A stretch of DNA of 64,000 nucleotides from Sporocytophaga sp. (lineage in GTDB: Bacteria; Bacteroidota; Bacteroidia; Cytophagales; Cytophagaceae): assembly GCF_017745095.1 (NCBI RefSeq), contig NZ_JAGHZZ010000007.1, positions 215,565 to 279,564 on the forward strand, in the 5' to 3' direction. The notes under the pieces are model-generated. The model was given only the letters and a program-made list of their open reading frames with translations. It searched no databases and was not told the DNA's origin. How positions within the stretch are numbered: the first letter of the stretch is position 1; every line of letters begins with the position of its first letter. Of this stretch, positions 7,664 to 59,922 are shown piece by piece. The translations under genes were made by a program, and so were the position numbers.

Positions 7664-7732
7664 AAAACTAAAAGCCTAAAGTGAAGGTTAGAAAACCTCA
7701 CTTTAGGCTTTAGGCTTTAGGCATTTTAGTTT
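7664..7732 (-). repeat. Heptad palindrome H1 (3' end of lipoprotein gene)
   Basis: On the minus strand, directly after the stop of the lipoprotein gene, the sequence repeats AAAGCCT at 7-base steps. It then folds back: the arm at 7694-7711 pairs with the arm at 7670-7689 across a 4-base loop, with one bulged base. A T-rich run follows. It can act as a terminator. It belongs to a family of 7-bp-periodic sequences found at six other gene ends in this window. Confidence 0.8.
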
Positions 7733-8539
7733 TTAAGGAAGCAAAAACACCATTTTTTTTCCTGCTATTGTAATATTTGAAATTTTATCACAGTCATCTT
7801 TCCCAAAATCTACTGATCTTGTCAATTTACCTTCTGGGATAACATCAATTGTTCCGGAAACAGGGTAAACAAGACCTTTATCAATAAATAAACAGGAAAC
7901 GTAATACAACAAAGGCTTCGTAATCAATGCAGTATAATCTTCCCCATCTCTACTAGTACCCGTCGCTGTTCCAGATACCGTATATTCATCATCTGTCAAA
8001 ATAGCGGTTGAATTATAACCCGCAACAAAAGTTCTTACCCTTTCAGAATTCCAGTAAGACACCTTTTGATCTTCAAATGTAATTTTACCATTGACAACTT
8101 TTATCGACCAGGCTGGAAGGGTATCGGTAATATTTGTAACAGTCTTTTCCCCTTCAATATGGTTGCCATTTACATAATAGTTATCCAGTGAAAACTTTAT
8201 AACTGAGCCTTTTGTACTGTATTTGCCAGTATACTGTATTTTGATTTTCCCACTTCTTACTCTATTATTAAAAGTACAACCCGAACCGAAATCAATAATC
8301 AAAGAATCACTTCCAACTAAAGAATAAGAAGGACAACCATTTGATGTCCTGAGGTTATTAGCCTCAAGAGCCTCCTGTCCTATTTTCAATATATCATCAA
8401 ATTCCTTTTGGGAGTAACTATAATCTGCAGCAGCAGACAAATCTTGGTCAGTTACTTCATCTTCTTTTTTCCCGCAAGAAAATAACAATAAACCAGTTAA
8501 AACCACAAGCAGAGAAGGCGTAAAAAAACTTTTTTTCAT
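7733..8539 (-). CDS. Predicted lipoprotein, unknown function
   Basis: 268 residues. The N-terminus is a lipoprotein signal: two lysines, a hydrophobic stretch, and the lipobox LLFSC with cysteine at 22. Acidic and lysine residues (GKKEDEVTDQD) follow. The remainder is rich in beta-strand-forming and Ser/Thr/Gly residues, with a short CTFNNRVRSGKI segment and a repeated 'expression of a coloured pattern' type layout common in Bacteroidota surface lipoproteins; I do not recognise a named family. Export to the outer membrane is likely. It appears monocistronic, with the stop touching a heptad palindrome. Confidence 0.8.
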   Translation of the reverse strand: MKKSFFTPSLLVVLTGLLLFSCGKKEDEVTDQDLSAAADYSYSQKEFDDILKIGQEALEANNLRTSNGCPSYSLVGSDSLIIDFGSGCTFNNRVRSGKIKIQYTGKYSTKGSVIKFSLDNYYVNGNHIEGEKTVTNITDTLPAWSIKVVNGKITFEDQKVSYWNSERVRTFVAGYNSTAILTDDEYTVSGTATGTSRDGEDYTALITKPLLYYVSCLFIDKGLVYPVSGTIDVIPEGKLTRSVDFGKDDCDKISNITIAGKKMVFLLP

Positions 8540-8642
8540 CTTATTGAATAAGGGATTGTATAAATAATTATCAATAAGATGCTTTTACGCAGTGAAGTAC
8601 CCAAAGTTCCCCGATATTTATATCACTCTGTATTACAAATAA

Positions 8643-9512
8643 TTAACCTTTATTGCGTACTTTCTTTTCAATCATATCCCACATTTCAGCTGGAATTTCG
8701 TCAAGATAACTGAACTCCCCTGCTCCTTTTATCCATTCACCTCCATCTATCGTTACCACCTCTCCATTTATAAAAGATGAAAAATCAGACACTAAAAATG
8801 CAGCAAGATTGGCCAATTCCTGATGCTCTCCTGTTCGGCCCAATGGAATTCTTTTTACCAAATCTATTTTTTTACTAACCTCCTCAGGAAACAATCTGCT
8901 CCATGCCCCTTCAGTTGGAAATGGCCCAGGAGCAATTGCATTCATTCGGATACCGTATTTTCCCCATTCTACAGCCAAAGATTTAGTGAGCGTAAGCACT
9001 CCAGATTTCGCAATAGCGGAAGGGACCACGTATCCTGAGCCAGTCCAAGCATAGGTCGTTACTATATTTAATACCGTACCTTTCAGTTTTTCCTTGATCC
9101 AATCTTTTCCAAAAGTAAGGGTACAGTTATAGGTACCTTTTAGAACAATATCTACGACTATATCAAAGGCTTTACTGGAAAGTCTCTCCGTTGGACTAAT
9201 AAAATTACCCGCAGCATTATTGACGAGAATATCTACTTTTCCAAATTTTGACTTTATTACACTCAATAAATTCTCTACTTCCAGAATATTTCTTATATCG
9301 CAAGCTACTGGAAGTACATCACCTCCTGTTTCCTTTTTTAGCTCTTCAGCAGTCTTTTCAAGAACTTCCAATTTTCTGCTAGCTATTATTACTTTGGCTC
9401 CAAGTTCCAGAAAATATTTACTCATAGACCTGCCAAGGCCGGTTCCTCCACCCGTAACCAAGACTACCTTACCCTTTAGCGAGCCTTCTTTTAACATTGG
9501 TTGATTGTACAT
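8643..9512 (-). CDS. SDR-family 2,4-dienoyl-CoA reductase
   Basis: NADPH-dependent short-chain dehydrogenase that reduces 2,4-dienoyl-CoA during beta-oxidation of unsaturated fatty acids. The Rossmann motif TGGGTGLG is at 20-27 and the NNAAG motif at 98-102. The usual YxxxK is absent; the stretch reads GYVVPSAIAKSG. This matches the mitochondrial-type DECR enzymes, where the catalytic pair is a tyrosine 15 residues before the lysine. Here these are Y154 and K169. The C-terminal stretch (NGEVVTIDGGEW, GEFSYLDEIP) also resembles DECR. 289 residues. A methionine at residue 6 is an alternative start. It is monocistronic and divergent from the aminotransferase. Substrate is inferred from family resemblance only. 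Confidence 0.88.
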   Translation of the reverse strand: MYNQPMLKEGSLKGKVVLVTGGGTGLGRSMSKYFLELGAKVIIASRKLEVLEKTAEELKKETGGDVLPVACDIRNILEVENLLSVIKSKFGKVDILVNNAAGNFISPTERLSSKAFDIVVDIVLKGTYNCTLTFGKDWIKEKLKGTVLNIVTTYAWTGSGYVVPSAIAKSGVLTLTKSLAVEWGKYGIRMNAIAPGPFPTEGAWSRLFPEEVSKKIDLVKRIPLGRTGEHQELANLAAFLVSDFSSFINGEVVTIDGGEWIKGAGEFSYLDEIPAEMWDMIEKKVRNKG

Positions 9513-9701
9513 ATCAGATTGTTTTAGAGCTTTAAAATAATTAAGATGAAAGTTTAAAAATAAAATTTTGTTATTACATTTTTGGATTTTTTACTTATCT
9601 AATTTGTTTTTGTATTTTAACACGAACTACTACTTAGCTTTTATTGAATATATCTGTAACTGCTAATTAAAGTATACTTGAATTAGCTTTATTGGTTACT
9701 A

Positions 9702-10847
9702 ATGATTCCTTATAACAAGCCTTTCATCATTGGAAAGGAACTAGAATATATACGTCAAGCAGTAGAAAGTGGAAAGATTTCCGGGGATGGGAAGTTTAGT
9801 AAACTTTCTCAGTCATTACTTGAAAAAAGATTTGGATACGGGAAAGTTCTTCTCACTAGCTCGTGTACCGATGCACTGGAAATGACCGCTATCCTTCTTA
9901 ACATCTCAGAAGGTGATGAAGTGATTATGCCTTCCTTCACCTTTGTATCTACCGCTAATGCATTTATATTAAGAGGTGCTAAAATTATTTTTGCAGAAAT
10001 AAGACCAGACACTCTTAATATTGATGAAAGTAAGATCGAAGCTCTGATTACGCCAAAAACAAAAGCTTTAGTTATAGTGCATTATGCAGGTATTTCCTGT
10101 GATATGGAAAAAATATCAGCAATAACTCAGAAGTACTCAATTGCTCTCGTTGAAGATGCCGCCCTGGCTATCGACTCCTATTATAATGGAAAAGCTCTAG
10201 GTTCTTTTGGTCAACTTAGTACATTATCTTTTCATGAAACTAAAAATATCATTTCAGGGGAAGGAGGGGCTTTGATTATCAATGACCCTCAGTATTATGA
10301 ACGTGCTGAAATTATTAGAGAAAAAGGCACCAATAGAGCTAAGCTATTTCGAGGAGAGATCAACAAATATGAATGGGTGGATATTGGTTCCTCTTATTTA
10401 CCATCTGAAATTATAGCAGCATTTCTTTATGCCCAGCTTGAAAATATGGATACCATACTAAAAAGGAGAATAACCCTCTGGAATCATTACTTTCAGAAAC
10501 TTAAACCTCTGCAGGAGTTATCAGTAGTTACATTACCTGTATTACCAGAGGGCACTACAATGAATGGACAGTTATTTTATATTCTCTGTAAAGATGAAAT
10601 AGACCGCAATGCTTTGCTTGAATTTCTTAATCAAGAAAAAATAAAAGCTGTTTTTCATTATCTACCTCTACATCTAAGTCCATTCTTTATGAATAAACAT
10701 GACGGAAGATCTCTTCCTGTAACCGAATCAGCAAGCGGCCGTTTAATCCGCTTACCTTTATTTTATGAGATGAAAGACGAAGAGCAGGATTATATAATTT
10801 CAAAGATTTTTGATTTCTTTAAGATAAATCATTATCCTAAGCATTAA
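9702..10847 (+). CDS. wecE: dTDP-4-amino-4,6-dideoxygalactose transaminase (WecE/RffA type)
   Basis: PLP-dependent sugar aminotransferase of the DegT/DnrJ/EryC1 family, converting a dTDP-4-keto-6-deoxyhexose to the 4-amino sugar. The whole length (381 residues) resembles E. coli WecE, including the start MIPYNKP, the stretch VIMPSFTFVSTANAF, the PLP-phosphate region, D152 (VEDAA) and the Schiff-base lysine K181 in SFHETKN. REKGTNRAKLFRG is another WecE signature. The product would feed surface polysaccharide synthesis. No other sugar-nucleotide or glycosyltransferase gene is next to it; the downstream gene is an OmpA-like lipoprotein 45 bases away. Confidence 0.9.
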   Translation: MIPYNKPFIIGKELEYIRQAVESGKISGDGKFSKLSQSLLEKRFGYGKVLLTSSCTDALEMTAILLNISEGDEVIMPSFTFVSTANAFILRGAKIIFAEIRPDTLNIDESKIEALITPKTKALVIVHYAGISCDMEKISAITQKYSIALVEDAALAIDSYYNGKALGSFGQLSTLSFHETKNIISGEGGALIINDPQYYERAEIIREKGTNRAKLFRGEINKYEWVDIGSSYLPSEIIAAFLYAQLENMDTILKRRITLWNHYFQKLKPLQELSVVTLPVLPEGTTMNGQLFYILCKDEIDRNALLEFLNQEKIKAVFHYLPLHLSPFFMNKHDGRSLPVTESASGRLIRLPLFYEMKDEEQDYIISKIFDFFKINHYPKH

Positions 10848-10892
10848 AGCCAGGAAAAATTTTACAAAATTTTTAAAACACCAGAATACCAT

Positions 10893-11849: not shown

Positions 11850-11875
11850 ACATAATTTTTGTTTGAGAACATTAA

Positions 11876-11900
11876 GGCTCCGGCAACTCCGGAGCCTTTT
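11876..11900 (+). terminator. Terminator after the OmpA-like gene
   Basis: GGCTCCGG (11876-11883) pairs with CCGGAGCC (11889-11896) around a 5-base loop, followed by TTTT. The stem is GC-rich and very stable for this AT-rich genome. Confidence 0.85.
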
Positions 11901-11980
11901 CATTTCATACAAACTATAAATCAACAATTTACATCAATTTAAAAAACATAAAAACTATTTAGAAAAATTCTAATTAATTA

Positions 11981-12013
11981 TTTGGAACAAGTCTAATTAA
12001 ATAAGTATCTTTG
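11981..12013 (+). promoter_or_regulatory. Consensus promoter of the small unknown gene
   Basis: TTTG (11981-11984), a 21-base spacer, then TATCTTTG (12006-12013): a full TTTG-N21-TAnnTTTG match. Transcription should start near 12019, only about 7 bases before the ATG at 12026. This position also rules out the upstream TTG codon at 12011 as a start. Confidence 0.75.
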
Positions 12014-12025
12014 TATAGTAGACAA

Positions 12026-12379: not shown

Positions 12380-12432
12380 TTTTTTTATCTCATATTTTGT
12401 TTTTATAAAAGATTGATTTACCTTGACACCTA

Positions 12433-12456
12433 GGGTAAACTATTATCTATTTACCC
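12433..12456. promoter_or_regulatory. Dyad upstream of ferritin
   Basis: GGGTAAA (12433-12439) and TTTACCC (12450-12456) form a perfect 7-bp inverted repeat with a 10-base centre, 44 bases before the ferritin ATG. No T run follows, so it looks more like an operator than a terminator. The binding protein is unknown. Confidence 0.45.
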
Positions 12457-12499
12457 AGTTTTGTAAAATCATAACCTCTGTAAAAGCAAAGTAGAGAAC

Positions 12500-13027: not shown

Positions 13028-13048
13028 TTTTTTGAAAAAAAACATAAA

Positions 13049-15529: not shown

Positions 15530-15536
15530 ATATTTT

Positions 15537-15575
15537 ACTTTAAGCTTGACGTCTTAAGCTTTAGGCTTTTTAAGC
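15537..15575 (-). repeat. Heptad element H2, overlapping GNAT stop
   Basis: A 7-base periodic stretch (CTTTAAG, CTTGACG, TCTTAAG, CTTTAGG on the plus strand). It covers the stop (15554-15556) and the last six or seven codons of the GNAT gene. On the mRNA strand it reads as AAAGNNN heptads. It contains two AAGCTT sites flanking GACGTC and can fold on itself. Confidence 0.7.
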
Positions 15576-16012
15576 ATCAGATATGATCTGTCTGACTTAA
15601 CAAAACCAAGCTTCTCATATAATTTCAATGCCCTGGCATTATAAGGCAATACCTCTAACTCCATTGCTACAAATTCTAGATCTTTTCTTTCCTTCAGATA
15701 TCTCACAAAATCTGTTGAAATCCCTTTCCCTCTATACTCCGAGATAATATAAAGCTCATCAATATTCAGGATCAATCCACCATATTCATTGCTATAGAAA
15801 TTAACTATGATACAATAGCCTACGATTTTGTCACCATCATTGATTATAGTTATTGATCCGTAATCCGGATGTTTTTCAAAAGCCTCAAAGGATTTATATA
15901 TCTGGTCTTCGGTTTTACTTTTTCCTGCAGGATCATCATTATAAAAATCCTGAATCATGGACACAACCTGAGCTCTGTCTGCTGCTTCAAATTTCCTGTA
16001 ACTAATATTCAT
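15554..16012 (-). CDS. GNAT-family N-acetyltransferase
   Basis: 152 residues, a complete GNAT domain. The acetyl-CoA pyrophosphate-binding loop reads SEYRGKGIS near 92-100, the following helix leads to ELEVLPYNARALKLYEKLGF near 118-137, the conserved motif A/B region. The acceptor substrate is unknown. The last six or seven codons (KKPKA) lie inside a heptad repeat, so the C-terminal tail is partly made of repeat sequence. Monocistronic, convergent with gnd. Confidence 0.88.
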   Translation of the reverse strand: MNISYRKFEAADRAQVVSMIQDFYNDDPAGKSKTEDQIYKSFEAFEKHPDYGSITIINDGDKIVGYCIIVNFYSNEYGGLILNIDELYIISEYRGKGISTDFVRYLKERKDLEFVAMELEVLPYNARALKLYEKLGFVKSDRSYLMLKKPKA

Positions 16013-22252: not shown

Positions 22253-23713
22253 ATGAAAAAACTTTTACCCCTGTTTTTTATAGCTTTTTCAATTAATCAA
22301 TCATTTGCTCAGCAGGAATACAGTTCATTTACATCCACTGGACGAGGAGTTTCCACAACATTTGTAACAGATTACCAAGCAATCGGAATTAACCCTGCTA
22401 ATCTAGGTTTACATACTGAGTATGAGACGAAGCATGTAACAATTGGATTAATGGAAGGTGCTGCTTCTGCATACTCTAATGCGTTGAGCAAAACAACTTT
22501 CGGAAAAAGTCTTACCGATTATAGTGACATCTTTAATCAACAGGATAAAATAAAAGCAGCACAGCAATTCGCCGGAAATGGTGTGGCTGCCAACGTAGAT
22601 CTGACGGCATTAGGATTTGCTATACAAAGTGACAAATTAGGAGGACTTGCATTTTCGATAAAAGAATCTATGCGCTGGTATTCTCAATTCAGTGGCCTTA
22701 CTGCAGATCTATTGTTTAGGGGAAAAACTTCAGCCTATTTTGATCAGTTGATGCTAAGTAATGGTGAAATGGTGGCTAATGATCCCAGCAAATATTCTCA
22801 ATACGAAGCAATAGGAATTTCTCAAGGAATTGCGAGCAATCAAATGAAGCTCTCTGCACTTTTTGATGGATCAAAAATTAAGAACAACTGGTATAGGGAG
22901 TACAATTTAAACTATGGAAGAAAAGTCTTCGGTAATGATTTGTTGTATATCACAGCTGGTGTTGGAGTAAAATATTTACAAGGTTTTAACTACACAAATT
23001 GTGAAGTTAAAAATGGAAAGATAGTTATGGCTGGAGCTTTTAATCCGGCTTTTGATATAGACTTTGGAGTAGGTGCTGCAAATAACCCGTCTGCTATAAA
23101 CAATACAAACTACCAATCCATAGGAAACGGGTTTGGTTTTGATTTTGGAGCAGATGTAGTCATTAATGAAAGAATAACTATAGGTGCAGCACTTACAAAT
23201 ATTGGTTCTATCAACTATACTGGAAATGTATATACGATAAAAGATACCACACTTGCATCAATCTCTTCTGATGGATCCAACAACTATAATATTTTTTCAC
23301 AAGCTCCAAATATTCTTGCCAAATCAGGAGTTTTAAAATGGGAAGGTCAAAAAAACATAAAGGCCAAACTTCCAGCAATGTTAAGGTTAGGCGCTAGTAT
23401 AAGACTGATTGAAATTGCTCACATTGGTTTTGATTTTATCATGCCTACAAACAAAGAAGCCGGCAATTTTGAAAAACCATACATAGGAATTGGGGGCGAT
23501 ATCAAGCCAATCAGATGGATAAGACTGTCAACCGGAATTAACACCGGTGGCAATTATATCTCCAGAGCAAACGTACCCTTTGGCCTAACAATAGTTGTTG
23601 GTGAAAATGGAACTTGGGAGCTGGGAGCTGCAACAAGAGATATTGTTACTTATTTAAGACAGAAGGGACCAAATTTATCTTTTGCATTTGGTTTCTTAAG
23701 GTTTAGACTTTGA
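22253..23713 (+). CDS. DUF5723-family outer-membrane beta-barrel protein
   Basis: 486 residues with a signal peptide (cleavage after NQSFAQ, near residue 20). The mature start has SFTSTGRGVSTTFVTDYQAIGINPANLG, the 'GxGxxxA...NPA' signature of PorV/FadL-type barrels. The rest alternates polar and hydrophobic residues in strand-length steps. It ends with a C-terminal aromatic-rich strand (SFAFGFLRFRL). The likely location is the outer membrane, as a barrel of unknown cargo. The gene's stop is followed after 3 bases by a heptad element. It probably has its own promoter. Confidence 0.85.
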   Translation: MKKLLPLFFIAFSINQSFAQQEYSSFTSTGRGVSTTFVTDYQAIGINPANLGLHTEYETKHVTIGLMEGAASAYSNALSKTTFGKSLTDYSDIFNQQDKIKAAQQFAGNGVAANVDLTALGFAIQSDKLGGLAFSIKESMRWYSQFSGLTADLLFRGKTSAYFDQLMLSNGEMVANDPSKYSQYEAIGISQGIASNQMKLSALFDGSKIKNNWYREYNLNYGRKVFGNDLLYITAGVGVKYLQGFNYTNCEVKNGKIVMAGAFNPAFDIDFGVGAANNPSAINNTNYQSIGNGFGFDFGADVVINERITIGAALTNIGSINYTGNVYTIKDTTLASISSDGSNNYNIFSQAPNILAKSGVLKWEGQKNIKAKLPAMLRLGASIRLIEIAHIGFDFIMPTNKEAGNFEKPYIGIGGDIKPIRWIRLSTGINTGGNYISRANVPFGLTIVVGENGTWELGAATRDIVTYLRQKGPNLSFAFGFLRFRL

Positions 23714-23716
23714 TAC

Positions 23717-23830
23717 GCTTAAGACCTAAAGCATAAAGTGAAAATCTATACTAAAAAAAGAGTTAATTATCTATTACACTTGTGTGCTTCACTTTAAGCT
23801 TATGCTTTGAGCTTTCAGCTTTGCGCTTTA
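23717..23830. repeat. Heptad element H3, an inverted pair between two convergent genes
   Basis: The left arm (23717-23746) directly follows the plus-strand DUF5723 stop and contains AAAGCATAAAGTGAA. The right arm (23787-23830) carries CTTTGAG, CTTTCAG and CTTTGCG heptads. It includes the minus-strand DinB stop at 23815-23817 and the last five codons. The arms are largely complementary and could fold into a long hairpin with a 40-base centre. Confidence 0.75.
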
Positions 23831-24279
23831 CCCAGTCTTGAGAAAGTTATGTAATCGACATTCACAGGCTCCTTCCCTGCCTCTATGAGTGCTTTATTTA
23901 CTTGTCCTCTATGATATGAGCCATGATTGGCAACATGAAATAAAATATCTAAAAGACATGTTTCAAAAATTTCACCTTTTGTATTCTTGTATTGTACGAC
24001 TTTAAAAAATTCGTCATCCGAACAAGTATCGATTAACTGGAAAAAATTCAGAGAACTTTCAACTGCATAAACCTTTAGTAAAAAAGGCTCATGTACCTGC
24101 CAAAGTTTAATAGAATGATGAGTTTCATTTTTTATTCGCCCATACCAGATCAATTCTGAATTAACAATATGACTTAGTAACCTTGCGCCTTCTTCACAAT
24201 AGTCATTCTTCAATACCTCCGCCAACCTTTTATTAGCCCAGTGATTGAACTGATATAAGCGATAAAAATTTTCCCTCAT
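23815..24279 (-). CDS. DinB/YfiT-family protein
   Basis: 154 residues, a four-helix DinB-like fold. The three expected metal-site histidines appear as HIVNSELIWYGRI near 37 and HVANHGSYHRGQ near 115-126, which is the usual H...H...H pattern. The family includes thiol-dependent transferases, and function here is unknown. It is the last gene of the sulfite reductase operon, 6 bases after the rhodanese gene. Its final codons (LGKAQS and stop) lie inside the heptad element H3, which supplies the C-terminal tail. Confidence 0.88.
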   Translation of the reverse strand: MRENFYRLYQFNHWANKRLAEVLKNDYCEEGARLLSHIVNSELIWYGRIKNETHHSIKLWQVHEPFLLKVYAVESSLNFFQLIDTCSDDEFFKVVQYKNTKGEIFETCLLDILFHVANHGSYHRGQVNKALIEAGKEPVNVDYITFSRLGKAQS

Positions 24280-35468: not shown

Positions 35469-35530
35469 AAAACGGGGACTATAAAATACCTTTGATCAAT
35501 CTGAAATACGGGAATTAAGTTCCCTTTTCA

Positions 35531-35586
35531 AAGTTATAAGTATTAAGTTGAAAGTTGAAAGTTGAATGCGAAAAGTTTGAAGCGGA
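35531..35586 (+). repeat. Heptad element H4, left arm
   Basis: Eight consecutive 7-base units in plus-strand sense, beginning AAGTTAT, AAGTATT, then three identical AAGTTGA. No plus-strand gene ends here. It lies 63 bases upstream of the nitrilase fusion start, in the 35469-35807 gene-free spacer. Confidence 0.75.
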
Positions 35587-35770
35587 GGACAGAAAGCAAT
35601 ATGTAGAAACTTTAAATAAGTTCGTAAGAGACGCAATGCTTGGCATATATCCTGTCCCACCTTAAGCCATGACTTGATTCGGATCAAGCTTTTAAAATAA
35701 TAAATTGTGAGTGTTAAGTTTAAAAACTATCATTCAGGGGTATATAATGAAAATTCATATCAATAAGATA
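35587..35770. other. Central part of gene-free spacer
   Basis: Holds GTAAGAGACGCAATGCTTGG (from 35624), which resembles half of the GAGACG palindrome at 59938. CTTGAT-TCGG-ATCAAG (35673-35688) is a 6-bp hairpin with a tetraloop. No gene was found; a 63-codon minus-strand frame here has no family resemblance or start signal. Confidence 0.5.
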
Positions 35771-35812
35771 TTTTCAACTTTTCACTTTAAGCTTTCAACT
35801 TTAAATTTTAGT
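35771..35812 (-). repeat. Heptad element H4, right arm, overlapping gene stop
   Basis: Heptads CTTTTCA, CTTTAAG, CTTTCAA and CTTTAAA on the plus strand, i.e. AAAG-type on the mRNA strand. They surround the stop of the minus-strand gene at 35808-35810. The arm is roughly complementary to the left arm 185 bases away. Confidence 0.7.
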
Positions 35813-36326
35813 CGCAAAGCTCAATCTGATCGCACTGATAATAGTGAGAAGCAACCTTAACCACACGGTTATTGGAATACTCTATTCGAATACAGCCATA
35901 TGTTGAGGGATAAAAATCTATTTCAGGGCGTTCATTTTTATATTTTGTGTCGGCAGGGTTTCCTAATAGTTCACGAATTTCCTTTCGGTTTTTATCAAAT
36001 ATTTTTCCTGCTACTTCTCCTTTAAATGCTTTATTCACCTCGACAAAATCCCAAAAGGTGTAATAAGTAAAACCTAACCCCTCGTAAAATACTGCTCCTC
36101 CGCATGAGTGGTTGCTGCCATCAGCAACAACAGATGTATAACAGGGAAACCATTCTTTTATGTCATTCTGAGATAAATTAGGCTTCACTCCATTTATTTC
36201 TCCCAGATGAATATCATAAGTCAATTGCTTGCATTCAACATGTGCGCTGGTCGTCTTTTGAGTACCCTTGCATGAAAAAAATGTAATAATAAAAAACTGC
36301 AGTACTATTAAAAATATTCTATTCAT
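35808..36326 (-). CDS. Predicted lipoprotein, unknown function
   Basis: 172 residues. The N-terminus has a lipoprotein signal with FFSCKG (cysteine near 19). The mature part contains several cysteines (C32, C62, C75, C144, C163, C172, with some approximate positions). Such spacing suggests disulfides in the periplasm. Motifs: KEWFPCYTSVVADGSNHSCGG and a C-terminal YGCIRIEYSNNRVV. I do not recognise the family. It is 43 bases downstream of another unknown gene on the same strand. The stop lies within a heptad element. Confidence 0.75.
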   Translation of the reverse strand: MNRIFLIVLQFFIITFFSCKGTQKTTSAHVECKQLTYDIHLGEINGVKPNLSQNDIKEWFPCYTSVVADGSNHSCGGAVFYEGLGFTYYTFWDFVEVNKAFKGEVAGKIFDKNRKEIRELLGNPADTKYKNERPEIDFYPSTYGCIRIEYSNNRVVKVASHYYQCDQIELCD

Positions 36327-39548: not shown

Positions 39549-41777
39549 ATGGGAAAGACCATAATAATATCCAACCGGCTTCCGGTAAGTATACAGAAGA
39601 AGGAAGATGGGTTATCATATACTCCAAGCGCAGGGGGACTTGCAACAGGGCTAGGATCAATATATAAATCAGGTGATAATGTTTGGTTAGGTTGGCCAGG
39701 CTTATACGTTACCAATGACAATGAAAAGGAAGAAATAGCATACAATCTGAAGAATGAAAACATGGCTCCGGTCTTTCTGACTAAGGAAGAGATTGAAAAA
39801 TTTTACGAAGGCTTCAGTAATACGACCTTATGGCCATTGTTTCATTATTTCCCTTCCTATACTTCATTTGACGAAGGTTATTGGGAAACATACAAACTTG
39901 TGAATCAGATATTCTGTGAAGAAACATTAAAATATGCAAACAATGGTGACATTATCTGGATTCATGATTATCAGCTTTTGCTTTTGCCTAATATGATAAG
40001 AGAAAAATTGCCCGATGCTACCATTGGCTTTTTTCAGCATATACCATTTCCATCATTTGAGATCTTCAGAAACCTACCATGGAGAAAAGAGCTTCTCGAA
40101 GGCATGTTGGGGTCTGACCTAATTGGTTTTCATACATACGATGATGTTCGGCATTTCTTAAGTTCTGTGAGCAGGCTTGTGGGAATTGACAATAAAATGG
40201 GAGAACTGAGAGTAGAGGAAAGAATATGTATGGTAGATTCTTTTCCGATGGGCATTGACTATGAAAAATTTGATAAGGCTGCCAGATCAGAAAACACTAC
40301 TAAGGAAATCGCTTCTTATGATGAATTTCTTGGAGACACCAAAACTATTGTTTCTATTGACAGACTGGATTATTCAAAAGGTATTCCTGACAGGCTTCTG
40401 GCATTCGATCTCTTTCTGGAAAATTATCCTGAATATAAAGGTCAGGTAACATTACTCATGATAGTTGTACCAAGCCGTGATCAGGTAGAACTCTATAAAC
40501 AACTTAAGGTTGAAATAGATGAACTGGTCGGAAGGATTAATGGAAAGCATGGAAAAATAGACTGGACACCGATAAGATATTTCTATAGATCTTTCCCATT
40601 CACTTCCCTATCAGCCATGTACAGATTATCTGACATTGCATTGGTAACCCCTCTCAGAGATGGAATGAACCTTGTTTGCAAGGAATATATTGCTAGCAAG
40701 ATTGACCAGACCGGGGTACTGATATTAAGTGAAATGGCCGGAGCGGCAAAAGAGCTTTCCGATGCTTTAATTATTAATCCGAACAATCTTCCTGAAATGG
40801 CAGATGCAATATACAAAGCATTGACAATGTCTGAAGAGGAACAAATAAGAAGAATGGATGAGCTGCAGTCAGTTGTGAAAAGGTACGACATTCATAACTG
40901 GGTGCAGCTTTTTATGAGAAGTCTGGATGTGGTAAAAGAAAAACAATACGAAATGTCTGTAAAACAATTAAGCAATCAATCAAAACTTGAACTGATTGAG
41001 GATTATAAGAAGGCCGAGAAAAGAATACTTTTTCTTGACTATGATGGTACACTTGTTCCGTTTAAACAAAATCCTAAACAAGCAAGGCCCGATAAAGAAT
41101 TGTATGGGATACTTGAAGATCTTTCTTCCGATCCAAAAAATAAAATAGTAATCATAAGTGGAAGAGATAGAGATACTCTTGATGACTGGTTTGGAAAATT
41201 AAGCATAGACCTGATTGCTGAACATGGAGTATGGCTCAGAGAAGGTCGTCCTTTCTGGAGTATGATTGATTATTTGACGGATGAATGGAAGTCTGAAATT
41301 TCTCCTATATTAGAAATGTTCGTAGCCAGAACTCCTGGCTCCTTTATTGAAACTAAAGGTTATTCCCTGGTATGGCATTATAGGAAATCCGATCCTGCAT
41401 TAGGAGAATTAAGATCCAGAGAACTTGTGAGCCACTTACAATTCATTACTACGAACATGAATATCAAAGTACTGGAAGGCAATAAGGTAGTAGAAGTTAA
41501 AAATGCTGGTATCAATAAAGGTAAAGCTGCGTTAAGATGGCTGAATGAATCTTTCAACTTTATCCTTGCAGCCGGAGATGACTGGACAGATGAGGACACC
41601 TTCAATGCTATGCCTGATTCTGCTTATACATTAAAGATAGGAAATACTCCTACTTCCGCAAGGTATAACCTTCATGAATGTGGCCCAGACTATTGCACAG
41701 AAATGAGAAGTTTGCTTATTACGCTTGCTGAGGAAGGACACCAGATAAGGCGTAAAGTTTTAAGTAATAAAGCTTAA
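39549..41777 (+). CDS. otsAB: Fused trehalose-6-phosphate synthase/phosphatase
   Basis: 742 residues, bifunctional. Residues 1-465 are a GT20 glycosyltransferase (OtsA): ISNRLPVS near 6-13, GGLATGL near 28-34, IWIHDYQLLLLP near 137-148, DRLDYSKG near 278-285 and the LRDGMNLVCKEY stretch near 370-381. Residues about 485-735 are an HAD phosphatase (OtsB): FLDYDGTL near 496-503, ISGRDRDTL near 537-545 and AGDDWTDED near 675-683. It makes trehalose from UDP-glucose and glucose 6-phosphate, a common osmo- and desiccation protectant. Convergent with a GH15 enzyme. The stop lies inside a heptad element. Confidence 0.95.
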   Translation: MGKTIIISNRLPVSIQKKEDGLSYTPSAGGLATGLGSIYKSGDNVWLGWPGLYVTNDNEKEEIAYNLKNENMAPVFLTKEEIEKFYEGFSNTTLWPLFHYFPSYTSFDEGYWETYKLVNQIFCEETLKYANNGDIIWIHDYQLLLLPNMIREKLPDATIGFFQHIPFPSFEIFRNLPWRKELLEGMLGSDLIGFHTYDDVRHFLSSVSRLVGIDNKMGELRVEERICMVDSFPMGIDYEKFDKAARSENTTKEIASYDEFLGDTKTIVSIDRLDYSKGIPDRLLAFDLFLENYPEYKGQVTLLMIVVPSRDQVELYKQLKVEIDELVGRINGKHGKIDWTPIRYFYRSFPFTSLSAMYRLSDIALVTPLRDGMNLVCKEYIASKIDQTGVLILSEMAGAAKELSDALIINPNNLPEMADAIYKALTMSEEEQIRRMDELQSVVKRYDIHNWVQLFMRSLDVVKEKQYEMSVKQLSNQSKLELIEDYKKAEKRILFLDYDGTLVPFKQNPKQARPDKELYGILEDLSSDPKNKIVIISGRDRDTLDDWFGKLSIDLIAEHGVWLREGRPFWSMIDYLTDEWKSEISPILEMFVARTPGSFIETKGYSLVWHYRKSDPALGELRSRELVSHLQFITTNMNIKVLEGNKVVEVKNAGINKGKAALRWLNESFNFILAAGDDWTDEDTFNAMPDSAYTLKIGNTPTSARYNLHECGPDYCTEMRSLLITLAEEGHQIRRKVLSNKA

Positions 41778-41803
41778 AGTGTAAAGTTGAAAGCTTAAAG
41801 TAT
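41762..41803 (+). repeat. Heptad element H5, left arm, overlapping otsAB stop
   Basis: Six perfect 7-base units: AAGTAAT, then AAAGCTT, AAAGTGT, AAAGTTG, AAAGCTT, AAAGTAT. The otsAB stop TAA is at 41775-41777 within the second and third units. Confidence 0.85.
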
Positions 41804-41807: not shown

Positions 41808-41831
41808 AAAAAGAGGCATAAGCCTCTTTTT
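41808..41831. terminator. Bidirectional terminator nested in H5
   Basis: AAAAAGAGGC (41808-41817) pairs with GCCTCTTTTT (41822-41831) over ATAA. It lies between the two heptad arms, and the arms pair outside it. Confidence 0.9.
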
Positions 41832-41843
41832 CGTTTTTGATAA

Positions 41844-41880
41844 TACTTTCAGCCTTAAGCTTTCAGCTTTATGCTTCTTA
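41844..41880 (-). repeat. Heptad element H5, right arm, overlapping GH15 stop
   Basis: CTTTCAG, CCTTAAG, CTTTCAG, CTTTATG and CTTCTTA at 7-base steps on the plus strand, the inverted partner of the left arm. The GH15 stop is at 41878-41880. Together with the terminator they form a three-level nested palindrome of about 120 bases. Confidence 0.85.
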
Positions 41881-43722
41881 AAGGAACGTAGGCAAATCCA
41901 GTTTCTTCGCAATTTTAAATGCTGCGTTCAGCTGTCCAACATGGCTGTATGCCTGAGGGAAATTCCCCCACTGGCTTCCTGAACTGGCTTCCACATCTTC
42001 ACTTAGCAAACCAAGATGATTTTGAAATCTCAAAAGCTTTTCAAATTCTCTGATAGCATCTTCGGTACGCCCAACCATTGCCAAGGCTTCAACATACCAA
42101 TATGCACAAATTAAAAAGGTAGACTCCGGTATTCCAAAATCATCTTCATGTTTATATCTGAAGAATAATCCTTCGTCTGTCTTAAGTCCTTCCTCTAGTG
42201 CTATCAAATGTTTTCTAGCCCTATCAGAATTAGGATCCAGGTATCTCATCGTGATTAATTGAAGACAGGATGCATCCAGATTCTTTCCTCCGACAGCCTG
42301 AGTATAAACTTCCCTCTCAGGATCATAACAAGCTTCTATCTGCTTTATGGAAAGTTCTTTAAGGATGGTTGCCTTTCTTATAATCTCTTCATTTTTGAAA
42401 TATTTTCCGATTTTAAGAGCCGAACAGGCTCCTGCCCAATGGAATAAAAATGTATAACAATGCTGCTGGGCAATATGCCTGAACTCCCAAAGACCTGCAT
42501 CCGGTTCATACATGGTATCTTCTATTTTTCTCAATGTATGATTAATTAGTCGTTGAGAATAATATCTTCCTCCCTCTGAGAATCTTGTATCTACATAAAG
42601 TGGCAATAAAGCCACAAGCACCTGACCATATACATCATTCTGAATATGGGTATAAGCATCATTCCCTACCCTTACAGGTTTATTATTTTCACCATATCCA
42701 TGTAAAGGCAGTTCCTTTTCGATCAATGCTTTTCTACCCGTAATTGAATAAAGGGGTTGATATCTGTCGGTCTCATTGATGGTTATATTTTCTATATAGT
42801 GAAAATATCTTTCCAGCTCTTCAAAGTGACCAACGTTATGGAAAGCGTTCAGAATATAATAAGTATCTCTTAACCAGCAATAGCGATAATCCCAGTTACG
42901 TGTTGTTCCGGGATATTCCGGCAAGCTGGTGGTTCCTGCAGCAATAATAGCACCAGTATCTTCAAACTGGTGAATCTTCAGACATAAAGCAGATCTGATG
43001 ATTTGCTCCTGATAAAAAATTCCGATACTGGTACTCTTTACCCAGTTTTGCCAGTATTTTACAGTCTTCCAAAGAAAATCTTCAGCAGTTTCCTCCAATG
43101 GAGCTTCAAGAGGTATACCGTATGTAAGAATTATATATTTAGCTTCATTCAAAACAAATGAACTTTCATCAGCTATAAAATTAAGAGCAATATTAGTGGT
43201 TAATCTGATTTGTTGGGACAATCCCATAAACCTGATATGGCTGCTTCCCTGATAAGCTTCAGGAACCAACTCTCCATATTCACCTACAGGACGGCATGAC
43301 ACCTTCACTCTTGGAGAACCAGATAATGGTTCTATTTTACGCACCAACATTAAAGGTTTAAAATTTCTTTCATACTGATAAAATCTCGGGGCAAAATCAG
43401 TTACCCTAAACCTACCTTCTGAACATTCAAAATCAGTCACAAGGACGTTAGTGTTTTCTATATACTTTTGGCTCGATACAAAATTTTCCTCGTGCGGAAG
43501 GATTGAAAATCTGCCTCCTTTATCTTTATCCAAAAGTGAACCAAAAATAAAACTACTGTCAAACTGCGGCCAGCACATCCAGACAATATTTGCAGTTTTA
43601 TCAATATGAGCCATAAACGCACAATTGCCTATAATGCCCATTTCGTAGGTATGCCTTTTCCCCATAAATTCTTTTTGACTCTGTGAAAAAATCTTTTTTT
43701 TGAGTAACCTGAAATTAGCCAT
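41878..43722 (-). CDS. GH15-family glucoamylase/trehalase-type enzyme
   Basis: 614 residues. N-terminal beta domain (about 25-215): GIIGNCAFMAHIDKTANIVWMCWPQFDSS is the standard GH15 start. The (alpha/alpha)6 barrel follows, with RNWDYRYCWLRDTYYILNAF near 268-287 (substrate and catalytic acid region) and SGSQWGNFPQAYSHVGQLNAA near 578-598 containing the conserved terminal motif. GH15 members hydrolyse alpha-glucans; many bacterial members lacking a signal peptide, as here, are cytoplasmic trehalases or isomaltodextrin/dextrin-acting. A start at M20 is possible. Convergent with trehalose synthesis, which suggests trehalose turnover, as inference. Confidence 0.9.
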   Translation of the reverse strand: MANFRLLKKKIFSQSQKEFMGKRHTYEMGIIGNCAFMAHIDKTANIVWMCWPQFDSSFIFGSLLDKDKGGRFSILPHEENFVSSQKYIENTNVLVTDFECSEGRFRVTDFAPRFYQYERNFKPLMLVRKIEPLSGSPRVKVSCRPVGEYGELVPEAYQGSSHIRFMGLSQQIRLTTNIALNFIADESSFVLNEAKYIILTYGIPLEAPLEETAEDFLWKTVKYWQNWVKSTSIGIFYQEQIIRSALCLKIHQFEDTGAIIAAGTTSLPEYPGTTRNWDYRYCWLRDTYYILNAFHNVGHFEELERYFHYIENITINETDRYQPLYSITGRKALIEKELPLHGYGENNKPVRVGNDAYTHIQNDVYGQVLVALLPLYVDTRFSEGGRYYSQRLINHTLRKIEDTMYEPDAGLWEFRHIAQQHCYTFLFHWAGACSALKIGKYFKNEEIIRKATILKELSIKQIEACYDPEREVYTQAVGGKNLDASCLQLITMRYLDPNSDRARKHLIALEEGLKTDEGLFFRYKHEDDFGIPESTFLICAYWYVEALAMVGRTEDAIREFEKLLRFQNHLGLLSEDVEASSGSQWGNFPQAYSHVGQLNAAFKIAKKLDLPTFL

Positions 43723-52568: not shown

Positions 52569-52603
52569 ATTTATTGACTTTATATTCTTAAAAATATTTT
52601 TGA

Positions 52604-52640: not shown

Positions 52641-52657
52641 ATAGAGTATTAAATTTC

Positions 52658-53386: not shown

Positions 53387-53389
53387 TAC

Positions 53390-56093: not shown

Positions 56094-56368
56094 GGGTAGA
56101 AATATGAGTGACAATAAAACCGGATTTTAAATTAAATATATCCAGTAAATAATCCAATAATTTATATCTAAACGAATGCATCGCTTCTAAAGATATCATC
56201 CTATTCCTCAAAAAATATATTTCTCATTTTCAGGGATTTTAATTTTCAGAAACTTCTTTTAAATTCAAACCTTCAACCAACTTTTCAGCTATGTTATTTT
56301 GTCAGAATCATTTTCGGAAAATCCGAATTTCAATTACTATAGAGTTAGTCCTAATCAAATCATAGCCA

Positions 56369-57178
56369 ATGAAACGGCTGATTTTATTGGTTCTCTGCGG
56401 TTTTATGTTTCACAAAGCTGCAGGGACCGGATATCCATTTCCCGCAGGCTCAGGGGCTGTCGGAATGGGAAATACTTCTGTTTCAAGAACTGATCTCTGG
56501 TCTGTTGTTAACAATATATCCGGGCTCGCTAATTTAGAATCCTCTGCATGTGGTATTTATTATGCCAATTATTTTGGGATTCAGGCATTAAACAAATACA
56601 ATGCTGCTATAGCCATTCCATACAAACAGCTCTGGACAGGAATTAATATTTCAAGATATGGAGATGGAAACTATAATGAAAGTTTTCTTGGCCTTGGACT
56701 GGCTCATAAAATCCGGAATGTAAGTCTTGGGATAAAAGCTGATTTGTTTCAATTACAGATATCAGAAGAAAAGACCATCCACAAGCTTTTGTTTTCTTTT
56801 GGTGGTCAGGCCGAGCTCAGCAAAGAGCTGTCGTTTGGAGCATATATTCACAATATAAGCCAGACTAAGATCAGAAAGGATCTTGAAGAAAGATTACCGA
56901 CAGTAATGAAACTTGGTATCCTTTGGAAGCCCTCATCCAAAATTCAGCTGTCGGTGGAAACAGAAAAAGAAATCCGATATTCCATGAACTTGAAAGCAGG
57001 AATGGAATATGCTCCAGTAAAGGGTTTCAGAATATGGACTGGCATCAACTCATTTCCGTCCAGAGTATTTTTCGGAGCAGGAATCCGGAAATACAATTTT
57101 GAAATAGCCTATGCCACAGGAACAATGAGTGCTGCAGGATCTACTCATCATCTCACTTTGAATTACTATTTCAGATGA
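56369..57178 (+). CDS. PorV/PorQ-like outer-membrane protein
   Basis: 269 residues. Signal peptide ends near HKAAG (about 19). The mature N-terminus reads GSGAVGMGNTSVSRTDLWSVVNN, the turn-rich signature of PorV/PorQ/FadL-like barrels (the 'GxGxAGMGNT...NPA' type). The rest alternates in strand-length steps and ends with LTLNYYFR, a typical barrel end. PorV and PorQ act as partners in T9SS. The stop overlaps the start of the next gene by 4 bases (ATGA). This fits a coupled outer-membrane pair, function inferred. Confidence 0.87.
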   Translation: MKRLILLVLCGFMFHKAAGTGYPFPAGSGAVGMGNTSVSRTDLWSVVNNISGLANLESSACGIYYANYFGIQALNKYNAAIAIPYKQLWTGINISRYGDGNYNESFLGLGLAHKIRNVSLGIKADLFQLQISEEKTIHKLLFSFGGQAELSKELSFGAYIHNISQTKIRKDLEERLPTVMKLGILWKPSSKIQLSVETEKEIRYSMNLKAGMEYAPVKGFRIWTGINSFPSRVFFGAGIRKYNFEIAYATGTMSAAGSTHHLTLNYYFR

Positions 57179-59223
57179 TACGAACCGCAACCATTTGTAT
57201 CATTTTACTTGGGATATCCTCCGTCTCATTTGCTCAGGATGAAATTCCCGAAGTAACGCTAAATGAGCTTACCCCTGCAGCCAGCGAGGATGAACAAGAA
57301 GCCATATTCAATAATATATTAGACCTCTTTCAGGAACCGCTAGACCTTAATAATGCAGAAAGAGAAGATTTGCAAAAACTTAATCTTCTTTCTGAACAAC
57401 AAATTGAAGGAATATTGCGGCACAGAGCAACAACTGGTCATTATGAATCTATATATGAATTGCAGGTCATTGAGGAACTGGATCTCTTTACAATAAAAAA
57501 AATATTGCCCTTTATCACTGTTATTTCATCTGACAATTCATGGAAAGGCTTATTAGCAAGGATTCACAAGAACCCAGCAGATTTTATAATTAAATACGAA
57601 AGAAGTCCTGAAAATAAAAAAGGTTATTCTTCTAATGCATCAGAAAGTACAAGATACTTAGGAAAGCCTTATAAAACCTACATCAGGATAAAGTCTTCAA
57701 AAGCGAAAGATTTCAGTATTGGGTTAATTGCAGAAAAAGATCCTGGAGAAATCTACAAATGGGAACCGGCTAAAAACTACTACCTATTTGATTTTGCTTC
57801 CTTTCATCTCGGGGTATATAACAAAGGTAAACTGAAATCATTTACCATAGGCGATTACAAGCTACAAGCAGGACAAGGATTGATATTTGGTTCAGGATAT
57901 TATCTTGGAAAAAATGCTGAAGCTATATCAGGAATTAAAAGAGCTGGCTCAGGTATATTGCAGAATACATCAGTTACAGAGAGTGGATTTTTCAGAGGAA
58001 CGGCTGCAAGCCTTACTTTTAAAAGAATAACAGTTTCAGGATTTTATTCCTCAATCAATAAAGATGCTTCTATCAATACAACAGAGTCCGACTCATTATC
58101 CAATGAATATTTTTCTACAGTGTATACAACAGGATATCATAGAACAATAAGTGAGATTAACAAAAAAGCTGCAATTAGTCAGAGAGATGCAGGTTTTATT
58201 ATATCGTTTCAAAACAAGATACAAAACCTTAATATAGGTTTAAATTTTATCAATACTCATTTCAGCAAATCATTTGAGAAAAACACAAACATCTATAACA
58301 GCTTTGATTTCAAAGGACAGGACAATACCTGCTATAGCATAGATGCAGCTTATAGATTTTACAATCTATCCATGTTTTCAGAAGCCGCTTTCTCCACTGG
58401 GGGCGGTAAAGCATTGGTGGGAGGAGTACTTGCCAGTCTGCACAAAAAAATTGACTTTTTATTTCTCTTAAGAAAATACGATAAAAACTTTTATTCTTTT
58501 TATGGAAGAGCATTTGGAGAAAACACAACAAATAAAAACGAAACCGGATTATATTGGGGAATCAAAATTACTCCTAACAAAAAATATAACCTATCAGCAT
58601 ATTTCGACACCTATACTTTTCCATGGTTAAAATACAGGACTTATGAACCAAGCCGTGGTAATGATTTTAACATACGCTTTAGCTATCAGCCCTCAAAGAC
58701 AACATTAGCCTATATTCAAATACGAAAAGCTATCCAGGAGCAAAATTCTTTCGCAACTAATATTACTTACGCAACAGAAACATGCATTTCAGAAATGCGC
58801 ACATTAGGTCTTGACTATAAGGCTAACGAATTTATTTCCCTTACAACAAAAATTATTCAGACAAAAGCCAAAAAAAACAATCTGAATACTAATGGGTATT
58901 TTCTCATCCAGGATATAAACGTTCATTTTAGGGGTATTAAACTTTCCCTGAGATATGCCTTGTCGGATGCAGAGAACTATGATAACCGGGCATATGTTTT
59001 TGAGAAAGATGTATTATTGGGATATGCACTTCCAGCCTATTATGGTAAGGGTTCCAGAGCATACCTTGTTTTGCATGGAAGGTTATTAAAACATTTGGGC
59101 TATTGGATAAAGTATGGTTATTACATTTATCCATTTATGGACATGACCGGTACAGGATCGGAAGAAACGCAGGGAAACATCAGATCTGAAATAAAAATTC
59201 AGTTAAGGTATACCTTGGGATGA
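57175..59223 (+). CDS. Helix-hairpin-helix domain outer-surface protein
   Basis: 682 residues. Signal peptide ends near SVSFAQ (about 21). Residues about 55-115 contain two helix-hairpin-helix units (LDLNNAEREDLQKLNLLSEQQIEGILRHRATTGHY, ELDLFTIKKILPF), like ComEA. The remaining 560 residues are beta-rich with strand periodicity and end IQLRYTLG, consistent with an outer-membrane barrel or surface protein. This combination (HhH plus barrel) occurs in Bacteroidota without assigned function. DNA binding at the cell surface is possible but unproven. Coupled to the PorV-like gene upstream. Confidence 0.85.
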   Translation: MIRTATICIILLGISSVSFAQDEIPEVTLNELTPAASEDEQEAIFNNILDLFQEPLDLNNAEREDLQKLNLLSEQQIEGILRHRATTGHYESIYELQVIEELDLFTIKKILPFITVISSDNSWKGLLARIHKNPADFIIKYERSPENKKGYSSNASESTRYLGKPYKTYIRIKSSKAKDFSIGLIAEKDPGEIYKWEPAKNYYLFDFASFHLGVYNKGKLKSFTIGDYKLQAGQGLIFGSGYYLGKNAEAISGIKRAGSGILQNTSVTESGFFRGTAASLTFKRITVSGFYSSINKDASINTTESDSLSNEYFSTVYTTGYHRTISEINKKAAISQRDAGFIISFQNKIQNLNIGLNFINTHFSKSFEKNTNIYNSFDFKGQDNTCYSIDAAYRFYNLSMFSEAAFSTGGGKALVGGVLASLHKKIDFLFLLRKYDKNFYSFYGRAFGENTTNKNETGLYWGIKITPNKKYNLSAYFDTYTFPWLKYRTYEPSRGNDFNIRFSYQPSKTTLAYIQIRKAIQEQNSFATNITYATETCISEMRTLGLDYKANEFISLTTKIIQTKAKKNNLNTNGYFLIQDINVHFRGIKLSLRYALSDAENYDNRAYVFEKDVLLGYALPAYYGKGSRAYLVLHGRLLKHLGYWIKYGYYIYPFMDMTGTGSEETQGNIRSEIKIQLRYTLG

Positions 59224-59271
59224 AAAATTGCTAAAGTTTGTTAAATTCGTAATAAAACCAAAGGGTAGTTT

Positions 59272-59883
59272 ATGGCCGTTTCATTTTATGAAATACTTGA
59301 AATTCCGCAAAGCGCAAGCCAGGAAGATATAAGGAAGGCATATCGAAAAAAAGCTAAAGTCTGGCACCCGGACGTAAACAAGTCTCCCGATGCACACACT
59401 AAATTTCAAATGCTGAATAAAGCATATGAAACGCTTGCAGATCAACACAAAAGGTTCATTTACGATCAAAGATCAAACTCAAATCAGCATACTCATTATC
59501 AACAGAATACTCATTATCAACAAAGCTATGCTTATGGACATGGCTATGCTTATCAATACAATGATCCCTTGGAGGTTTATCGCCAATGGGCAAAAATGAA
59601 AAAAGAGCGTGCTGAAAAAGAGGCTAAACTGAAATATGAGGAGTTCCTAAAAAACAGAGAAATATTCAGAAATTCCTTTATCTATTACCCCACACTTCTG
59701 TTTATTTACCTTGCTACTGCCCTTTGTTTTTTCATAGGGTTATTTGTGATCGGTCTTTGCACCTTTCTGATATTTAAACTTCACTTCGTTTTGCTATTCG
59801 TTTTATCACCATTTATTTGCGCTGGTGTATATTTCATTAAATGCACAGGGGATTGGTATAAGGAAGCAAAGAGATATTTTTAA
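59272..59883 (+). CDS. J-domain (DnaJ-like) membrane protein
   Basis: 203 residues. J domain at 3-70: [19 protein letters not shown] includes HPD at 32-34, which stimulates DnaK. A short HYQQ-type repeat follows (about 70-90), then a charged helix (about 105-140) and two hydrophobic segments (about 144-165 and 168-188). It lacks the G/F region, zinc fingers and C-terminal substrate domains of DnaJ. It probably tethers DnaK at the inner membrane. Single gene, convergent with TraB/GumN; its stop begins a heptad array. Confidence 0.88.
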
Positions 59884-59922
59884 AGTTTAAAGCAGAAAAC
59901 TTAAAGTTAAAAGCAGAAAGTT
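59881..59922 (+). repeat. Heptad element H6, starting at the J-domain gene stop
   Basis: Six 7-base units TAAAGTT, TAAAGCA, GAAAACT, TAAAGTT, AAAAGCA, GAAAGTT. The first TAA is the stop of the J-domain gene. No matching inverted arm was seen before the convergent gene. Confidence 0.85.

Follow-up and report, generated by a model that had tools for sequence, protein, structure and literature searches.

Stop-anchored heptad arrays in Sporocytophaga as possible arms of intergenic intervening-sequence-type elements linked to IVP (S23p) genes

In a 64,000-nt stretch of the genome of Sporocytophaga sp. (the window: bases 215565-279564 of contig 62; the genome is 6.63 Mb), arrays of 7-nt units lie at the stop codons of protein-coding genes, often as inverted pairs. 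We consider the chances about even that, for the most part, these arrays represent gene-less arms of intergenic intervening sequence (IVS)-type elements, and that the arms are read by the pentameric protein IVP (S23p, PF05635). IVP genes are flanked by arms with the same architecture, which can be written as (AGN5)n-IVP-(N5CT)n. This rule, the commonest array length of five units, and the fit between the arm period and the IVP protein tree would join two puzzles. Heptad repeats in Xanthomonas, Nostoc, and Beggiatoaceae have no accepted function (PMC4692102, PMC4679880), and S23p/IVP, whose pentamer structure dates from 2006, still has no known function (PMC4990558). Our results suggest that the arrays may explain a long-unexplained class of bacterial heptad repeats. 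If so, the IVS would be a widespread, stop-anchored element between protein genes, and not only a feature of rRNA.

A first-pass annotation of the window had given the unit as AAAGNNN. The 7-nt period holds, but the first base is A or T and the fifth is C or T, so the unit is (A/T)AAG(C/T)NN, i.e., AG recurring every 7 nt. When we scanned all 4-mers at periods of 5-12 for runs of at least four, AAAG at period 7 came first with 25 runs, followed by AAGC (13), AAGT (11), and CTTA (5), all at period 7; the rest had at most 2. A motif-free scan at lag 7 gave 30 segments, versus 0-11 segments at lags 5, 6, and 8-11. Of these 30 segments, 26 were intergenic and 18 were within 15 nt of a stop codon, and in 16 of those 18, AG was better kept than CT on the sense strand. 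Within the window, exact copies of AAAG spaced 7 nt apart form 5 runs with at least three copies each, compared to a mean of 0.15 and a maximum of 1 in 100 order-3 Markov sequences.

The heptad spacing also stands out genome-wide: (AAAGNNN)3AAAG has 159 matches in this genome (G000) versus 1 for the reversed control, and 217, 92, and 283 matches in three congeners (G001, G002, and G003) versus 11, 0, and 4, where overlapping matches within one array are counted more than once. (Numbered labels beginning with g, f, or G are coded genera, families, or genomes.) The TAAGYNN variant contributes a further 27, 26, 40, and 13 matches in G000-G003, with no control matches in any of them.

To examine the positions of the arrays relative to genes, we scanned 1.264 Mb (19% of the genome, including the window), with genes called ab initio by our own script. 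We found 49 arrays that scored at least 20; at the same threshold, a plain scan found 48 arrays versus 5 in the reversed sequence. An array edge was within 15 nt of a stop codon in 34 of 49 cases (when placed at random in intergenic DNA 100 times, the mean was 7 and the maximum 14), and AAAG was on the mRNA sense strand in all 34. The enrichment at stop codons and the strand bias proposed in the annotation thus extend well beyond the window. More precisely, 26/49 arrays start at -3 to +2 from the stop codon (null mean 1.25, maximum 5), and just one is within 15 nt of a start codon (null mean 7.75). The first letters of the first unit often come from the TAA stop codon itself, and 30 of 33 array-bearing gene ends use TAA, compared to 742 of 1,073 gene ends overall. 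The arrays form 35 clusters, which are located at or between called protein genes and not within an rRNA gene: 19 between convergent genes, 14 between co-directional genes, 1 between divergent genes, and 1 intragenic. Among all gene pairs, 160 of 1,069 are convergent.

Because of the stop anchoring and the sense orientation in this 19% of the genome, the arrays may have a role or an origin at transcript 3' ends. One alternative explanation is that the arrays are a host signal in the 3' untranslated region: a host RNA-binding protein would act on the array to affect 3' ends, stability, or the termination of translation, and the IVP genes would have been inserted secondarily, into arrays that were already there. 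The anchoring, the strand, the excess of convergent clusters, and the near-absence of divergent ones all favor a host signal. We still consider it doubtful, for reasons given below.

The six array sites in the window were all present at about the positions given by the annotation. They comprise these features:

7664..7684, + strand: heptad arm of 3 units, an inverted partner that folds with 7698..7732 (z = -6.4)
7698..7732, - strand: heptad arm of 5 units that abuts the stop of gene 7733-8539(-), in the sense of that gene
15535..15569, - strand: single heptad array that overlaps the GNAT stop (gene 15554-16012(-))
23714..23748, + strand: weak heptad arm directly 3' of the stop of the DUF5723 gene 22253-23713(+)
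23802..23829, - strand: heptad arm that overlaps the DinB stop (gene 23815-24279(-))
35530..35613, + strand: heptad arm of about 12 units, an inverted partner (fold z = -3.2)
35768..35809, - strand: heptad arm of 6 units on the stop of gene 35808-36326(-)
41747..41803, + strand: heptad arm that extends into otsAB at its 3' end (stop at 41777), in two parts, 41747-41767 and 41769-41803 (fold z = -7.1)
41808..41831, no strand: GC-rich, terminator-like hairpin of the ordinary kind, with A and T runs, between the two arms at otsAB/GH15
41843..41877, - strand: heptad arm of 5 units that abuts the stop of the GH15 gene 41878-43722(-)
59882..59923, + strand: single 6-unit heptad array, located on the stop of gene 59272-59883(+), which encodes a DnaJ domain

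All seven gene ends named in the annotation touch an array with AAAG on their own sense strand. The GNAT, DinB, OtsA/OtsB, GH15, and DnaJ labels agree with Pfam searches, but neither of the two proteins labeled as lipoproteins has a Pfam match at E = 0.001. The annotation also described most sites as inverted pairs that can fold into long hairpins. Four of the six are paired, but just three fold clearly better than shuffled sequences (z = -6.4, -7.1, and -3.2; the remaining three have z = -1.1, -1.5, and +0.85). We did not find an IVP open reading frame (ORF) within the window, and a tRNA was the sole match to Rfam, at gathering scores, in the whole window. The Rfam result and the separate hairpin at otsAB fit the view that the arrays are not terminators or repetitive extragenic palindromic (REP) sequences. 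REP/RAYT elements have a palindromic unit and a matching RAYT transposase; the unit here is a 7-nt tandem repeat, and RAYT genes were not searched for.

Five units is the commonest array length (52 of 129 arrays: 21/56 in this genome and 31/73 in stretches of the congeners). There were 18 arrays of 4 units (9 and 9) and 25 of 6 units (12 and 13), and the reversed control of this genome's stretches gave 4; the score cut hides very short arrays. The fifth unit, which is usually the last, changes from AAAGC to AAAGT: its fifth position has C at a frequency of 0.23 and T at 0.61, compared to 0.54-0.66 for C in units one to four. Plain heptanucleotide simple repeats, which could arise by polymerase slippage and be retained where they are harmless, are another candidate. 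One survey found heptamers to be the most frequent class of long simple repeats in most of its genomes (PMC4679880, citing Mrazek 2007), and exact expanded copies are present in some genomes. Nevertheless, we consider slippage unlikely: the units differ among themselves while AG stays, the modal count of five comes with a distinct last unit, the arrays start on stop codons and on one strand only, and they occur in inverted pairs and are coupled to IVP.

We identified 36 array pairs, with loops of 2 to 232 nt. Matched arms anneal slightly better than re-paired arms (17 pairs, p = 0.017), and the share of T at position five is correlated between the two arms (36 pairs, rho = 0.45, p = 0.005), while the share of T at position one is not (36 pairs, rho = -0.04). 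We rejected the idea that the arrays are intrinsic terminators: a terminator-like hairpin was found within just 3 of the 36 loops (0 after shuffling), and these were separate from the arms. Hairpins beyond the arms were not counted.

The four Sporocytophaga genomes share 84-93% identity over matched blocks. Gene ends were comparable in all four species for 98 of the 168 genes that had at least one comparable end. Arrays were absent from 80 of these ends, present in all four species at 14, and variable at 4 (the reversed control gave 9 matches in 392); with a stricter AAAG model, the counts were 81, 11, and 6. In other words, the array is kept in all four species at 14 of 18 array-bearing ends, which also favors a host signal. 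The annotation had suggested mobile decay products. Because the positions are mostly conserved across the genus, decay fits poorly; mobility gains some support from the IVP genes that are flanked by the same architecture.

Conservation of position does not mean conservation of sequence. At two sites, both arms are of the AAAG type in this genome and of the TAAG type in G002, so the array sequence has been replaced. Between sister species, the units can be exchanged completely, which argues against a host signal. The terminator hairpin 3' of otsAB is found in each of the four species, but the motif of the arrays around it changes. The array on the GH15 side is missing in G003, where otsAB and GH15 are no longer neighbors. 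We also looked for a clean empty site: in the best case (280656/280799 in this genome versus G002), the entire intergenic stretch is replaced, with no neat insertion.

The link to IVP comes from a gene that starts just 3' of a heptad array and encodes an IVP (PF05635, E = 2.6e-41). In all four species, an IVP gene sits between argC- and argD-like genes, and arms flank it on both sides. The arg names rest on semialdehyde dehydrogenase and class III aminotransferase domains. In this genome's argC-argD element (L182), the arms pair around the IVP ORF in RNA folding (z = -2.6). The argC-argD IVPs of G000 and G002 are 86% identical and both have TAAGT arms, while that of G001 (50-55% identical to those two) has AAAG arms. 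The argC-argD IVP of G003 (67% identical to G001's and 50-55% to the other two) has a long upstream arm that mixes TAAG and AAAG. This G003 gene (L187 and L194, G003:C5:353148-353470) is split over two frames and its arms persist; one arm is about 77 nt of mixed TAAG/AAAG units.

This genome's IVP has a sub-threshold match to PF22296 (bAvd). PF05635 resembles Avd, which is an accessory protein of diversity-generating retroelements (PMC10053308).

To examine IVP flanks more broadly, we analyzed 78 IVP loci: 8 from this genus, 30 from other Bacteroidota, and 40 more chosen for variety among the Bacteroidota matches listed. This sample leans to top-scoring IVPs, and orthologous sites were counted separately. 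It leaves out four diverged, armless genes from the genus (L188, L189, L191, and L193) and the second piece of the split gene (L194). The mean self-match at lag 7 was 10.0 upstream and 9.7 downstream, versus 4.0 for controls from the same loci. At lag 8, the means were 5.2 and 5.8, versus 3.8. Further lags were near the control, except for lag 14, and periods 5, 10, and 11 showed no excess. Lag 7 was the best lag in 47/78 upstream and 47/78 downstream flanks (28/310 controls), and lag 8 was best in 12/78 and 13/78 (31/310 controls). With a strict threshold, set at 95% of controls, 46 of 78 loci had a lag-7 or lag-8 arm on at least one side, and 15 had arms on both sides, versus 3% of controls. 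In a first pass with 38 loci, some with mis-called ORFs, the median for the best inverted match of one flank to the other was 11, versus 7.5-8 for controls.

Among clear arms (lag score of at least 9 and at least 2.9 units), 29/39 upstream arms had AG at the same phase in 80% or more of their units (CT in 7), and 28/34 downstream arms likewise had CT (AG in 4). The other letters vary between lineages. These arrays start at -15 to +9 nt from the upstream stop codon in 38/50 cases and end within 15 nt of the next start codon in 32/45 cases, so the arms mostly occupy the whole space from the upstream stop to the next start. Both neighbors, taken as the longest ORFs, were co-directional in 86 of 100 cases. 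That IVP arms are mostly between co-directional genes and reach start codons as well is not expected for a host signal at 3' ends. We analyzed 30 further IVP loci, without their own control, from 13 mostly named genomes (15 searched). In this set, arms extend to Crocosphaera watsonii, Zixibacteria, KSB1, Fulvivirga, Algoriphagus, and Prolixibacteraceae. Cyanobacteria are represented by one genome with three IVP matches, of which two loci were analyzed.

Neither 7 nor 8 is divisible by 3, so the arms might be cassettes that place stop codons in all three frames, but this seems very improbable. The AG strand does have 0.75 stops per unit, compared to 0.40 on the complement. However, the units have 0.80 stops each versus 0.82 after column shuffling (sd 0.012), which is no excess over composition, and a cassette does not account for the lack of an excess at periods 5, 10, and 11. 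We rejected this candidate.

The period of the arms follows the IVP protein. We built a tree from 79 of the 108 IVP loci (78 plus 30), keeping those with clear arms, a gap of at least 2 points between the period-7 and period-8 scores, and proteins of 90-200 amino acids. The period-8 label (16 rows) requires just 3 changes on this tree, compared to a mean of 14.7 for shuffled labels (0/500 were as low). One clade of 12 IVPs from three family-level groups, near-copies included, is entirely of period 8, and a second period-8 group unites Crocosphaera, KSB1, and Stahlbacteria. In several genera or genomes (g51, g104, g113, Crocosphaera, and KSB1), both periods occur and are separated by protein clade. 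This speaks against host composition as the sole cause. It also argues against a host signal, because the period tracks the protein clade even within one host genus. The base following AG clusters on the tree as well (29 changes versus a shuffled mean of 37.2).

IVP and the arrays also co-occur across genomes. IVP is present in 298 of 395 sampled Bacteroidota genomes; the AAAGYNN pattern has matches in 81 of the 395, and all 81 are IVP-positive (hypergeometric p = 5e-12, with no correction for phylogeny). In some of these genomes the reversed control has as many matches or more, so a match alone does not prove an array of the AAAGYNN family. In G263, which is a distant member of the Bacteroidota, 400 kb (320 kb contiguous plus 80 kb picked for having AGRT-N3 pattern matches) contained 31 lag-7 segments, 30 of them intergenic, versus 0-8 at lags 5, 6, and 8-11. 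In one region of this genome (G263:C1:4400001-4720000), many different heptad motifs occur next to each other; each has period 7, and some reach at least 10 near-identical copies. Among eight f25 genomes, AGRT-N3 matches exceeded the reversed control in G263 (87/27), G317 (89/24), and, to a lesser degree, G150 (34/17), and the remaining five had about as many matches as the control or fewer. Repeats of identical copies make up many of the matches.

Among the closest known systems are the GGGAATC and GGGGA(C/T)T heptads that Rehm et al. (2015, PMC4692102) described in Xanthomonas and Nostoc; these are also 7-nt units with variable positions. They are mostly 0-50 nt past stop codons on the coding strand, with some overlapping the stop, and they mostly flank the same genes in two species while sequence and length vary; all of this is found here too, as are inverted pairs, of which 70 and 75 convergent ones were reported for Xanthomonas. 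They also occur before start codons on the opposite strand, and few are between divergent genes. They differ in being G-rich, in having 4 units as the commonest length, and in being interpreted as G-quadruplexes. For our arrays, the match in period, inverted pairs, and proximity to stops would favor a quadruplex, but AAAGYNN and TAAGTNN units have no regular G-tract and would not be expected to fold into one (as judged from the sequence rather than computed). We rejected this identity for the genus and consider it the least credible of the alternatives. The sections of that report used here leave the function open and make no link to IVP or S23p (PMC4692102).

Another close system is the IVS of 23S rRNA with an S23p ORF, in which inverted ends form a stem around the S23p/IVP gene and tandem heptamers lie upstream of its start (PMC4990558). 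Complementary, stem-forming ends are found at three of the six window sites and in L182. Among the elements with these arms, only the argC-argD element L182 has an S23p/IVP ORF inside. The rRNA elements are inserted in 23S rRNA, while the arrays here are between protein genes, are mostly gene-less, and were not found within an rRNA gene.

The TAACTGA heptamers that MacGregor (2015, PMC4679880) described in Beggiatoaceae, some Cyanobacteria, and five Bacteroidetes are likewise short and mostly intergenic, and some overlap upstream stop codons, but they consist of one fixed heptamer and are mostly just before start codons; one inverted repeat is reported in the main genome. Similar unexplained heptads were thus already known (PMC4692102), and the link to IVP genes appears to be new: judging by titles and abstracts, none of the open-access matches listed ties dispersed heptad repeats to IVP or S23p, with subscription literature outside the scope. 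Also among known heptads are the STRR repeats of cyanobacteria, which are near-identical tandem heptamers such as CCCCAGT.

If the arrays are indeed IVS-type arms, the structure of an element is as follows. The first arm begins on the stop codon, with AG on the sense strand, and the second arm follows downstream in inverted orientation. The commonest arm has five heptads, each with AG at a set position, and the two arms can pair in RNA as a long stem. A complete element has an IVP (S23p) gene in the loop, as between the argC- and argD-like genes of this genus, and the other inspected copies, including all those in the window, have a short loop without a gene. A ring of five IVP subunits may read an arm, with one heptad per subunit. 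RNase III might cut the stem, as reported for rRNA IVSs, and the elements may spread or replace each other at existing sites.

The proposed reading by IVP draws on protein structures and on Coxiella. PDB entries 2gsc and 2rld each have five identical chains, and S23p from X. campestris is a homopentameric torus (PMC4990558). The rRNA IVS of Coxiella has three tandem GACAGAT heptamers before the start of S23p, and the first of these holds an RNase III site (PMC4990558). By analogy, the protein TRAP reads spaced NAG triplets.

More broadly, the heptads of this genus and of other Bacteroidota, and possibly GGGAATC of Xanthomonas and the heptads of cyanobacteria and Beggiatoaceae, could all be arms of one ancient class of IVS, with homopentameric IVP/S23p as a dedicated reader that takes one AG (or RG) heptad per subunit; the clade of the protein would determine whether the step is 7 or 8 nt. 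We offer this broader proposal tentatively and consider it less likely than not.

Several observations weigh against the arrays being arms of IVP-read elements. IVP genes are far scarcer than arrays (2 to 6 IVP matches per congener genome versus 92 to 283 pattern matches), and among 13 IVP matches in the genus, only those at argC-argD have WAAG-family arms. The conserved IVP-like gene L188/L189/L191/L193 has no arms. The mixed G003 arm weakens the argC-argD example of matching between protein and arm, and lowered our confidence from slightly better than even to even. In the 78-locus sample, 32 loci pass the strict threshold on neither side and just the 15 do so on both. Of the 30 further loci, several show no clear arms, and GG or a different core replaces AG in some; outside the Bacteroidota, the AG core is not universal. 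Arms of one element are just weakly matched to each other (the 17 pairs above). Hosts also cluster on the IVP tree (f43: 3 changes versus 14.1 shuffled), the period-8 clade includes near-copies, and the tree has few columns and many weak forks. Movement of the window arrays was not caught in the four-species comparison, and Rehm et al. did not, as a rule, see mobile elements close to their heptads (PMC4692102). Finally, S23p is probably not made in vivo in Coxiella (PMC4990558), which speaks against a general need for the protein.

The diverged, armless IVP-like gene (L188/L189/L191/L193) is present in all four Sporocytophaga species, between murE- and mraY-like genes by eye, and may be a domesticated IVP. 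Some of the other IVP matches in the genus have inverted repeats of different kinds, by eye. The genus also has a second dispersed family of inverted hairpins, AGCAAGAG...CTCTTGCT (L186 1346-2012, with matches in G001-G003). An IVP gene of this genome (C22:4456) lies between such hairpins, and G002 has the hairpins without the IVP gene. This is another family, not clearly heptad and unlike the window arrays.

Elsewhere in the window, the closest relative of OtsAB among the best 80 is from a metagenome-assembled genome named "Cytophagaceae bacterium" (66% identity), of the Cytophagales. Upstream of gene 60043-63486(-), at 63645-63934, there is an imperfect tandem repeat of 42 (84) bp with blocks that resemble GAGCTC and TTCGAGCAAA.

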